Source of the DNA: an uncultured Eubacterium sp.
GTDB lineage: Bacteria; Bacillota; Clostridia; Lachnospirales; Lachnospiraceae
Direction: 5' to 3'
NCBI GenBank assembly: GCA_947089855.1
Contig: CAMUML010000038.1
Location: 1 to 42,447, forward strand
Length of the DNA stretch: 42,447 nucleotides
Under the pieces are notes generated by a model. That model was not told where the DNA came from and searched no databases. It worked only from the letters and a program-made list of their open reading frames with translations. The translations under genes were made by a program, and so were the position numbers. Positions 117 to 42,376 of this stretch are shown here, one piece after another. Numbering within the stretch: position 1 is the stretch's first letter; every line of letters starts with the position of its first letter.

Positions 117-152
117 GTTGCTATGAGCAGCCTCCAGGCCGTGAATAGCAAC
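117..152. repeat. 36-nt hairpin related to the 16921-16956 hairpin
   Basis: GTTGCTAT pairs with ATAGCAAC around an inner GAGCAGCC/GGCCGTGA arm and the loop TCCA. The hairpin at 16921-16956 has the same length and layout, but there the outer arms read GTTACTAT and ATAGTAAC. The base pair changed on both sides, so pairing is kept. It appears to be a solo version of the last hairpin of the longer elements at 4989 and 16813. Confidence 0.7.
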
Positions 153-4968: not shown

Positions 4969-4988
4969 GGACATAAAGCAGACACTAC

Positions 4989-5123
4989 GTAACAGTTCAG
5001 ATAACCCTTGAACTGTTACGCATCCGGCCATTGAAAATCGCTTTGCGATGGTCCGGATGCCCGCAACCGCTACATTTTCATACGGTCTGCGCAGTAAATG
5101 CGCAGGCCTGTCTGAACTGTTAC
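4989..5123. repeat. Structured intergenic element, copy 1 (135 bp)
   Basis: The ends are a perfect 13-bp inverted repeat, GTAACAGTTCAGA (4989-5001) and TCTGAACTGTTAC (5111-5123). A third copy of the arm, TGAACTGTTAC at 5009-5019, can pair with the first one instead, so two folds exclude each other. Inside are a GCATCCGG/CCGGATGC stem (5020-5060) that holds a nested ATCGC-TTT-GCGAT hairpin, and a CTGCGCA-GTAAA-TGCGCAG hairpin (5087-5105). Read on the minus strand, the order of hairpins is the same as in 16813-16956. It fills most of the gap between the SPFH and glucokinase genes. Confidence 0.85.
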
Positions 5124-5152
5124 GGCACTACAATGAAAAAGGAGAATAAAGT

Positions 5153-16553: not shown

Positions 16554-16742
16554 ATGGACATGAGAAAATTAGTAAAATCAAACCAAAACCGGATCATCTG
16601 CGGCGTATGCGGCGGGATTGCCCAATATTTTGGCATAGATGCCACGATCATACGCCTTGTATGGGTATTATTCAGCCTGGCAGGCGGCAGCGGTGTGTTA
16701 GCTTATATTATCGCTGCTGTGATTATTCCGCCGGAATATTAA
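16554..16742 (+). CDS. PspC-domain small membrane protein
   Basis: A 62-residue PspC domain: NRIICGVCGGIAQYFGID followed by the hydrophobic segment RLVWVLFSLAGGSGVLAYII and the terminal VIIPPEY. PspC-type proteins respond to membrane stress, often through partner proteins. The ATG at 16554 is chosen because GAGGAG lies 7-8 nt upstream; the longer frame from 16509 lacks such a site. It closes the PadR operon about 77 nt after the DUF4097 gene and is followed by a hairpin terminator. Confidence 0.9.
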   Translation: MDMRKLVKSNQNRIICGVCGGIAQYFGIDATIIRLVWVLFSLAGGSGVLAYIIAAVIIPPEY

Positions 16743-16751
16743 AAAATTTGC

Positions 16752-16800
16752 ATCCAGCCGTCTGTGGAGGGGTACCTTCCAGACTGGCTGGATTGTTTCT
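16752..16800 (+). terminator. Hairpin terminator after the PspC gene
   Basis: ATCCAGCC-GTCTG (16752-16764) pairs with CAGAC-T-GGCTGGAT (16780-16793), then TTGTTTCT. The T-run is interrupted but the stem is strong. It likely ends the PadR-PspC transcript. Confidence 0.65.
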
Positions 16801-16812
16801 GTCCATACCTTT

Positions 16813-16956
16813 GTTGCTATTCACGGGCCAGGAATGCGCATAAACTGCGCATTCCGTGAGGACATGATTCAGGAGTGAGGGGCGGTTTTGCGAAGCAAAC
16901 TTCCAATATCGCCCCGAATGGTTACTATGAGCGGCCCCCAGGCCGTGAATAGTAAC
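16813..16956 (+). repeat. Structured intergenic element, copy 2 (144 bp)
   Basis: The order is: 5' arm GTTGCTATTCACGGGCC (16813-16829); hairpin GGAATGCGCA-TAAAC-TGCGCATTCC (16831-16855); linker with GATTCAGGAGTGAG (16866-16879); a GGGGCG/CGCCCC stem with nested GTTTTGC-GAA-GCAAAC (16879-16915); then GTTACTATGAGCGGCC-CCCA-GGCCGTGAATAGTAAC, given here in parts: GTTACTAT, CCCA loop, ATAGTAAC (16921-16956). The 5' arm can also pair with the last arm (one G-T wobble), so two folds compete. The order of hairpins equals that of the element at 4989-5123 read on the minus strand. It lies before the promoter at 16987. Confidence 0.85.
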
Positions 16957-16986
16957 GGGTATGGTAAAAATTATAAGGAAAAATAC

Positions 16987-17015
16987 TTGCAACTATTTCC
17001 AAATACGCTTACAAT
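16987..17015 (+). promoter_or_regulatory. Sigma-A promoter for the small protein / hisB pair
   Basis: TTGCAA at 16987-16992, 17-nt spacer, TACAAT at 17010-17015. The structured element at 16813-16956 is upstream of this promoter, so it is not part of this transcript. Confidence 0.65.
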
Positions 17016-21114: not shown

Positions 21115-21237
21115 ATTACTATTCACAGCCAATTTGCTCTTGACAAATATTTAAAGTTATGAGGCTGTAAATAGTAACATTCGCAGGCTCATGGAAAGAA
21201 TTTGCCTTGCAAATTGGAGCCTGCTCACTCCTGAATC
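21115..21237 (-). repeat. Structured intergenic element, copy 3 (partial, minus strand)
   Basis: Read on the minus strand: GATTCAGGAGTGAG (identical to 16866-16879); a CAGGCT/AGCCTG stem with nested AATTTGC-AAG-GCAAATT; CGAAT; then GTTACTATTTACAGCC (21178-21163) pairing with GGCTGTGAATAGTAAT (21130-21115) across a 32-nt loop. The stems match those of copy 2 in place but not in sequence, while the 14-nt linker is identical. The first hairpin of the other copies is missing, so this copy is truncated or diverged. It lies between divergent genes. Confidence 0.8.
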
Positions 21238-21337
21238 AGCTTTCTTATTGACAAAAAGCAACCAGATATGATACCTTTTGTATACGGCAAACAACAAGAG
21301 GCAATCATATCACAAAACCATACAACAGGAGAAGGAC

Positions 21338-30158: not shown

Positions 30159-30254
30159 GGGATTGTCAGTATGCTGAGGATAAAAGCACAGCTGGAATTT
30201 GCTGCAGCCTATTCCAATAGGTGGCTGTAGCTGCAATACAAATAAAATAAAGTG

Positions 30255-30418
30255 GATAGAGGTTGCGTGATTCATAAGTAGCTTATCTGATGTGGCAGGC
30301 ACAAAGGATGATAGGCAGAAGGGGAAAGCGCCGAAAGGACGGATGCCCTGCGCTGAAGCCCTTGGGCATAGGGTGAATAACCTTATGACTGTCATCTAAA
30401 TATAGATGGGGCGCTATC
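30255..30418 (+). promoter_or_regulatory. Lysine riboswitch (L box)
   Basis: The conserved core AGAGGTTGCG, then AAGTAGC, GGGGAAAGCGCCGAA, GGGTGAATAACC, ACTGTCA and GGGGCGCTATC occur in the order of lysine riboswitches. GATAG (30255-30259) and CTATC (30414-30418) form the closing stem. A terminator at 30435-30463 follows and dapA is downstream, which fits lysine feedback on the diaminopimelate pathway. Confidence 0.92.
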
Positions 30419-30434
30419 AGATTGGATCATGCAA

Positions 30435-41790: not shown

Positions 41791-41823
41791 ATAAGGACTT
41801 TGCATTTGCTGCAAAGTCCTTAT
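41791..41823. terminator. Perfect hairpin after the coiled-coil gene
   Basis: ATAAGGACTTTGCA (41791-41804), loop TTTGC, TGCAAAGTCCTTAT (41810-41823): 14 perfect base pairs. No T-run follows, so it could be a terminator or RNA-processing hairpin. Confidence 0.65.
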
Positions 41824-41959
41824 GTATAGCAGCGAAAACAAATCCCTCATCCGGCATCCGGGAGGCCATAATGTAACATCCTATCTGAACAATTACGATT
41901 AAGTAAATGGCATTGAAGGCTGGACTGTTACAAAATATCATAAATATAGAAAAAAATAG

Positions 41960-42081: not shown

Positions 42082-42299
42082 GCCACGATTGGATGGAGTG
42101 GCAGCCTACTAAGAAAATGTGAAAACGCCTGCTTGATAGGGCAAGGGAAAAGGTAACAAGTAAAAATAAATATAGATTTAGTAATTGTCGCTATAGTTCA
42201 GCTGGATAGAGCGACCGCCTCCTAAGAAAGTGTTATAACACTCGCCTAAGAGGACAAGGGAAAAGGTAACAAGTAAAAATAAATATAGATTTAGTAACT
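42082..42299 (+). pseudogene. Two degenerate tRNA-Arg-like tandem units
   Basis: Unit 2 begins at 42187 and matches the 5' 40 nt of the intact tRNA (42300-42339) with two changes, up to the anticodon loop CCTCCTAAG, then leaves the tRNA sequence. The 85-nt stretch 42142-42226 repeats at 42255-42339 with three differences, a 113-bp period. Unit 1, from about 42082, is a more diverged version (GGATGGAGTGGCAGCCTACT, then AAGAAAATGTG). Unit 2 lacks the T arm and acceptor 3' half, so it cannot be a working tRNA. Confidence 0.8.
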
Positions 42300-42376
42300 G
42301 TCGCTATAGCTCAGTTGGATAGAGCGACCGCCTCCTAAGCGGTAGGTCGGAGGTTCAAATCCTCTTAGCGACGCCA
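42300..42376 (+). tRNA. tRNA-Arg (anticodon CCT)
   Basis: A full cloverleaf can be drawn: acceptor GTCGCTA/TAGCGAC, D arm with AGCTCAGTTGGATAGAGC, anticodon arm ACCGC-CTCCTAA-GCGGT with anticodon CCT (reads AGG), T arm GGAGG-TTCAAAT-CCTCT, discriminator G and an encoded CCA (42374-42376). Confidence 0.97.

Follow-up and report, generated by a model that had tools for sequence, protein, structure and literature searches.

A non-autonomous transposon with a conserved three-hairpin fold in Eubacterium and related genera

Two segments of one Eubacterium contig, 16813–16956 (copy B) and the minus strand of 4989–5123 (copy A), were described in the original prediction as copies of one structured element, with the same order of hairpins and almost completely different stem sequences. 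This raises the question of whether the two are really kin, what kind of element they represent and what keeps the fold. We followed them through the window (the whole stretch of DNA analysed, 42,447 nucleotides), the genome that contains it and the relatives of that genome. Copy B consists of the following parts.

16813–16956, plus strand: whole element (copy B), a 144-bp non-autonomous transposon
16813–16829, plus strand: 5′ terminal inverted repeat GTTGCTATTCACGGGCC, with the 3′ end as a possible pairing partner
16831–16855, plus strand: hairpin 1, GGAATGCGCA-TAAAC-TGCGCATTCC, with a pentaloop
16856–16878, plus strand: linker GTGAGGACATGATTCAGGAGTGA, partially conserved across subfamilies
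16879–16915, plus strand: hairpin 2, outer stem 16879–16886/16908–16915
16887–16891/16895–16899, plus strand: inner stem of hairpin 2, with a GAA triloop
16900–16907, plus strand: 3′ bulge of hairpin 2, CTTCCAAT, unpaired
16921–16956, plus strand: hairpin 3, GTTACTAT...ATAGTAAC

The inverted ends of copy B read GTTRCTATTCACGG...CCGTGAATAGTAAC. In hairpin 1 (10 bp) the motif TGCGCA adjoins the loop TAAAC, and in hairpin 2 the outer stem GGGGCGGT/ATCGCCCC encloses TTTGC-GAA-GCAAA together with the unpaired bulge. Hairpin 3 has the 3′ terminal inverted repeat as its 3′ arm and a second direct copy of the 5′-end tip as its 5′ arm, so that the tip occurs three times, at the 5′ end and in both arms of hairpin 3. 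The proposed order of 5′ arm, TGCGCA hairpin, linker, nested stem and last hairpin is thus borne out, and the limits 16813 and 16956 are exact, since most copies in the genome match precisely this interval from end to end. The 144 bp contain no transposase; the one listed open reading frame of at least 80 aa that crosses copy B (16723–16992, minus strand) extends beyond it on both sides. At the flanks of copy B itself no target duplication is visible, and the sequences CCATACC and GGTATGG found there are inverted to each other.

None of 4227 Rfam families matched the element at the gathering score, either in the window or in 20 subfamily loci, and the element was not found in the open-licence literature, including a text search on six end sequences that returned one unrelated insect paper. 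The window also holds a lysine riboswitch at 30249–30424 (103 bits).

When the genome (101 contigs, 4.08 Mb) was searched with the copy B region (161 bases), at least 43 matches came up: the query, two short ones, and 40 others at 94–99% identity, which are full or nearly so (one of these covers 127 of the 161 bases). The count is a lower bound, scoring having been limited to 40 of 230 first-look candidates. The same 4.08 Mb contain 176 occurrences of the 14-base end GTTACTATTCACGG and none of its reversed control. Among 43 copies that were read, perfect 8-bp target duplications flank 24 and three more have one mismatch; when left and right flanks are taken from different rows, 5 of 1892 pairs agree with one mismatch or none. 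The 43 copies come from 44 rows, in which one place, L086, appears on both strands, and four of them have the left end replaced by another insertion. A second set of 40 elements, 35 from relatives and 5 from the same genome, showed 26 perfect duplications and 5 with one mismatch. These are 40 of 41 wanted loci (L190 was missed and L034 gave its B-type copy), taken with an element finder that does not demand a perfect hairpin 1, because such a demand biased the set. In six other genera, 30 of 55 copies have a duplication of 7–9 bp when a one-base shift is allowed, a count made with no shuffled control (60 regions were taken and 59 used, L458 being left out, and four were cut at contig ends). 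According to a crude ORF caller, 21 of 33 loci have no overlapping reading frame of at least 90 aa.

The many copies and the 8-bp target duplications identify the element as a non-autonomous transposon (MITE): it has terminal inverted repeats, a fixed 8-bp duplication and many near-identical, mostly intergenic copies, and it has no transposase. Copy B is a member of this repeat. The checks suggested for copy number and insertion sites thus gave at least 40 further copies in the genome and 8-bp target duplications, in many different neighbourhoods; its nature as a transposable element bounded by terminal inverted repeats had been left unsaid and is the main addition made here.

Copy A is such an element as well.

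4989–5123, minus strand: copy A, 135 bp, other subfamily of the same architecture, ends GTAACAGTTCAGA...TCTGAACTGTTAC
5124–5131, minus strand: target duplication of copy A, first side, GTAGTGCC
4981–4988, minus strand: target duplication of copy A, second side, GTAGTGTC, one mismatch

The identity of A and B in a plain alignment, 64.6%, lies within the range of shuffled sequences (mean 61.1, maximum 69.8), so the claim of relatedness rests on structure. The covariance model R1, built from 26 B-type copies of the same genome and four congeners, without A, Eubacterium plexicaudatum (G004) and genome G008, finds copy A with 40.0 bits (E = 6.4e-8 in 514 kb), and the 32 unrelated viral loci inside those 514 kb give no R1 match up to E = 1. 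On the window with filters off, copy A is found at E = 5.3e-9. The sequence-only model R2, made of the same rows with no base pairs, gives copy A 12.5 bits over partial length (E = 0.038). R1 also scores G008 at about 95 bits and finds 10 of 11 E. plexicaudatum elements at 50–70 bits, missing L190; R2 scores the elements of that species at 15–34 bits and misses two of the 11 (L187 and L190). Longer A variants with an extra hairpin reach only 13–21 bits with R1 (E 0.006 to 0.84). The detection of A by a model that contains no A copy upholds its kinship with B, with pairing kept. As to the near-complete difference of the stem sequences, the second stem and the ends bear it out, whereas hairpin 1 has TGCGCA in both copies.

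Across subfamilies, hairpin 1 usually has 8–12 pairs and five loop bases, for example TAAAC, TTTAC or CTTGC. In hairpin 2 the sequence of the outer stem changes entirely from one subfamily to another (GGGGCGAT, GTTTCCAGTCC, GAATCCGGCAC, GTATCCAGCC, TGCAAAATCC and GCATCTCGCTC, among others), the triloop is GNA in 53 of 61 elements with a closing C-G in 54 of 61 (automatic pass), and the 3′ bulge is often YTTNAAT. Hairpin 3 is a palindrome built from the end. When scored against a three-hairpin template, all 61 elements exceeded each of their own 60 shuffles; the best of the 3660 shuffles scored 24 and the lowest element 23, and 200 random viral stretches scored at most 24. That run took 20 of 26 matches; of ten further elements (the six remaining matches, L190 and three longer A variants), 7 scored above their shuffles and L413, L067 and L068 did not, two of the three longer A variants being among the failures. 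It should be noted that the total, 68 of 71 elements beating every own shuffle, is descriptive, the rows having been found by similarity or model and many being close relatives, and that hairpin 1 of L417 was clearly mis-picked. A hairpin order no better than that of shuffled sequence, which was named at the outset as grounds for giving up the claim, is not what the R1 E-values and the template scores show: the fold is conserved beyond chance.

Alignment A3 (26 rows, 6 of them from the same genome, after three G008 rows with a different outer stem length had been dropped) has 96.4% of cells paired, versus 31–43% in slid controls, and two-sided changes in 24 cells, versus 7.6 in shuffles; further pair types do not exceed the shuffles (29 versus 30.1), and the alternative end-to-end pairing shows no covariation excess. 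In stems 1 and 2 of 13 subfamily alignments, 12 distinct two-sided changes keep Watson–Crick pairing and none breaks it, so that the compensatory changes to be looked for in homologues are present. One-sided changes in the same alignments comprise 27 G-T, 12 A-C and 24 others (one-sided p = 0.012). This count omits one 133-bp copy of the same genome, the mirror row, L460, L467, L167, L191, L416 and all of G147. Most of the excess of G-T over A-C lies in the hairpin-2 outer stem (15 to 2), and hairpin 1 has none (8 to 8). Since mutation alone is expected to yield G-T and A-C about equally, hairpin 2 seems to be constrained on the strand described here for the element. Covariation across homologues is a feature of functional structured RNAs, and a role in RNA is possible for the element. 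GNA loops closed by C-G form unusually stable DNA mini-hairpins, which makes a role in single-stranded DNA possible beside that in RNA.

In RNA, the region 16806–16966 folds with −73.3 kcal/mol (z −6.2; none of 200 shuffles was as good), and copy A has z −6.5. In the minimum-energy RNA fold of copy B (−67.6 kcal/mol for the plus strand, −60.0 for the minus strand) the ends pair together and hairpin 3 is absent, which agrees with the proposed alternative pairing of the last 3′ arm with the 5′ arm; in that of copy A, hairpins 2 and 3 are formed. As single-stranded DNA, copy B forms all three hairpins on both strands (−37.9 and −34.8). In the predicted folds the last hairpin and the end-to-end stem thus compete, in keeping with the original prediction.

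The window contains two reduced forms of the element.

117–152, plus strand: solo hairpin 3, 36 bp, B-type, between perfect 8-bp repeats TATAAATT at 109–116 and 153–160
21115–21262, minus strand: decayed copy, 47 bits to R1, with hairpin 1 missing and the hairpin-3 loop enlarged

A possible decayed relative of the element lies at 41794–41940, where a hairpin-1-like sequence GGACTTTGCATTTGCTGCAAAGTCC precedes apparent remnants of ends of the A and CAATG types. A degenerate partial tRNA copy (~42187–42226) and a direct repeat gggaaaaggtaacaagtaaaaataaatatagatttagtaa occupy ~42143–42299 ahead of an intact tRNA at 42300–42373, an arrangement suggestive of a duplication of the tRNA start. Several palindromes of about 25–38 bp, some of them between near-perfect repeats, were seen by eye in genome G103. 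In the genome of the window, a 64-bp mini-element (L088:416–479), GTTACTATTCACAGCT...AGCTGTGAATAGTAAC, encloses a TTGACA motif. A further palindromic insert TAGTACACCGTAAAATAAATAACTGG... lies within B-type elements of two species (L085 at ~118–281 and L194 near 1950).

Nine of 12 other species in the genus have the element, as does one more genome from the family; together with the genome of the window this makes 11 carriers among 61 genomes. Several copies in relatives combine replaced stems with perfect target duplications. In a family-wide search with strict filters, in which at most 26 candidates per genome were scored, R1 matched 16 of 120 sampled genomes at E ≤ 1e-4, that is, 15 of 119 genera. 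Several carrier genomes are multicopy, one outside the genus with at least 22 copies. Plasmid and phage records gave no match to the element. Two scans of viral contigs gave 93 and 74 stretches with the 14-bp end, which we take to be mostly chance; among these stretches two ends are listed in L270 only, and its interior is different. G004 is E. plexicaudatum ASF492, and the genome of the window belongs to another species of the same genus. NCBI taxonomy places E. plexicaudatum in Eubacteriaceae; many named relatives of the IS4 protein described below are Lachnospiraceae, which presumably is the family sampled with R1.

The best candidate found for the mobiliser is an IS4-type transposase. An 1823-bp element of E. 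plexicaudatum, GTTACTGTTCACACC-CAATGTCATTTACTTAA...TTAAGTAAATGACATTG-GGTGTGAACAGTAAC, encodes an IS4-family transposase and is flanked by perfect 8-bp AATTTCTG repeats. G103 has a 1748-bp IS4-type element with a protein 37% identical to that of E. plexicaudatum, ends GTTACTATTCACAGTCCAATGTCATTTAGTT and the duplication AAAATTCG/AAAATTTG with one mismatch. Both carry the outer ends GTTACT[GA]TTCAC, so that the sharing of ends with autonomous elements amounts to the outer 12 bp in two IS4-type elements of two genomes. At the IS4-family loci L175 and L529 these ends are joined with CAATGTCATTTA, and the outer 12 bp and the 8-bp duplication are as in our element; the insertion sequences encode a DDE transposase, whereas the element encodes none, and R1 has no match in L175. 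The inverted ends of the IS4-type elements of this group are at least 30 bp long. The relatives L210, L211 and L218 end at CAATGTCA and lack the outer part. Short elements with these inner IS4 ends sit within B ends at ATTCACGGG in the genome of the window, and a degraded IS4 is likewise inserted in an element end at CCCGTGAAT; the insertion sequence therefore either shares the outer ends or often lands there. Within the genus, 6 of 13 genomes have IS4 relatives. Of the 14 carrier genomes from other genera, 13 lack one at E ≤ 1e-8, and 2 of 13 genomes with no R1 match have one, which speaks against this type as the general mobiliser.

A second short element of the genome of the window (L077, L078, L079 and L094), with ends CAATGTCATTNACTTA, lies inside the B end at one exact position, in both orientations and with duplication of ATTCACGGG, a case of a transposon landing in a transposon end. 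The IS66 transposase family has 94 matches in the genome of E. plexicaudatum ASF492.

Other candidate parents were set aside. IS66 came under suspicion because of its GTAA ends and 8-bp duplications. The IS66 of the genome of the window is a broken remnant in which no matching ends were found, and two E. plexicaudatum IS66 groups, as judged from 21 of those 94 matches, have the ends GTAAACGG and GTAAGCGATGAAC, unlike the element. The half matches L036, L038 and L040 have no obvious transposase among their reading frames when inspected by eye, and a 1514-bp end pair in G103 encloses a gene that we take, from its translation, to be seryl-tRNA synthetase-like. Around 18 lone ends, each taken with some 4 kb of flanking sequence, no partner end that would make an element lay 1–4 kb away at up to three mismatches. 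At L479:170–209 in G103, an end palindrome GTTACTGTTCACAGAGACAGTAAC followed by a T run lies beside the seryl-tRNA synthetase-like gene and resembles an element end that has been turned into a terminator.

Copy B has a PspC-domain gene on one side and, on the other, a short reading frame followed by an imidazoleglycerol-phosphate dehydratase gene. The original prediction placed it upstream of a separate promoter and did not regard it as simply the leader of the next gene. The latter part stands, in view of the target duplications and the many contexts; the promoter-like site at 16987–17015 is weakly supported and no better than chance, its 9/12 match being found on average 1.1 times in shuffles. 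Downstream genes are co-directional in raw counts of 23 to 9 and 24 to 10, largely due to divergent gene pairs, which are uninformative on orientation. Tandem contexts show no clear bias (24 co-directional versus 12 opposite, two-sided p = 0.065; 70 loci, crude ORF caller).

The reading we prefer, with a probability of about 0.6, is that of a MITE moved by an external transposase, with an interior fold that selection maintains among spreading copies. The transposase would be made elsewhere, act on the 12–15-bp ends and duplicate 8 bp of the target. Between the ends lies the conserved single-strand fold of hairpin 1 with its pentaloop, hairpin 2 with its C-GNA-G triloop and 3′ bulge, and hairpin 3; most likely, selection on spreading copies keeps this fold because it forms on one strand. 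The fold would probably act in the read-through RNA of a host transcript and keep the insertion harmless or stable. A deletion between the 5′ end and its direct repeat in hairpin 3 could, judging from the anatomy, leave a solo hairpin 3 that retains the original target duplication, as at 117–152 and comparable to solo LTRs.

Selection may not be the only force that keeps arms alike. In single copies the arms of hairpin 3 match each other and depart from the 5′ end, as in L420, L472 and L473, a pattern that fits the homogenisation by template switching described for RNA hairpins in PMC8794818, and selection and template switching may both be active on the element. As a full alternative, a real MITE whose arms are maintained by mutation, with template switching at imperfect inverted repeats copying arm onto arm, has an appreciable but minor chance of being right: it leaves unexplained the conserved unpaired parts (GNA triloop, pentaloop, bulge and linker), the same architecture in 15 genera and the one-strand excess of G-T over A-C in hairpin 2. 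That excess, being strand-specific, also speaks against inverted repeats acting as double-stranded DNA, either as strand-symmetric transposase sites or as subterminal palindromes; the threefold end tip and the long inverted ends of the IS4-type elements would suit such sites, but the outright replacement of the outer stem of hairpin 2 between subfamilies implies that no sequence is read there, and we consider this explanation improbable.

The position of a stable structured region upstream of the imidazoleglycerol-phosphate dehydratase gene might suggest that copy B is a cis-acting leader or riboswitch of that gene, which is very improbable for a sequence with copies in many contexts and both orientations, target duplications and no Rfam match. 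That A and B are unrelated hairpin repeats alike by chance, as their identity within the range of shuffles would allow, is hardly credible given the R1 E-values and the additional subfamilies of this genus whose stems are different.

A MITE with a selected fold can be compared with several known repeats. REP/REPIN elements are short palindromic intergenic repeats mobilised by RAYT transposases and are not known to have target duplications; the solo hairpin 3 is REP-like in being a short palindromic repeat, whereas the 8-bp duplications and inverted ends of our element point to a DDE transposase. The BOX elements of Streptococcus pneumoniae are modular structured repeats, and modular structure is common to both, a likeness by description alone. 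The bacterial MITEs Correia/NEMIS, ERIC, CIR and RPE, as presented in PMC10969869 and PMC2229807, share with our element a length of about 100–200 bp, inverted ends, target duplications, many copies and transcripts predicted to fold. In the account of PMC2229807, the other MITEs form one stem-loop by end-to-end pairing and CIR, with two arms and a linker, comes nearest to our element, which by contrast has three hairpins with conserved loops; unlike that of the MITEs so described, its fold persists through subfamilies with replaced stems. More tentatively, the element might represent a class of mobile structured modules, of RNA or single-stranded DNA, in which a three-hairpin fold with fixed loops would be copied and re-inserted by transposition in many genera; the one-strand fold and not the sequence would be selected, and would act in the transposition cycle or in the host transcript; we rate this as possible, though short of an even chance.

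Bacterial MITEs are usually treated as shrunken ends of insertion sequences with incidental hairpins. In this element the fold of the interior is conserved although its sequence has turned over almost completely, in copies recent enough to have perfect duplications. The element thus offers a testable case of a transposon with a non-coding interior under structural selection, and the copies of one genome form a natural mutation experiment in which selection on the folded strand can be set against correction by template switching.
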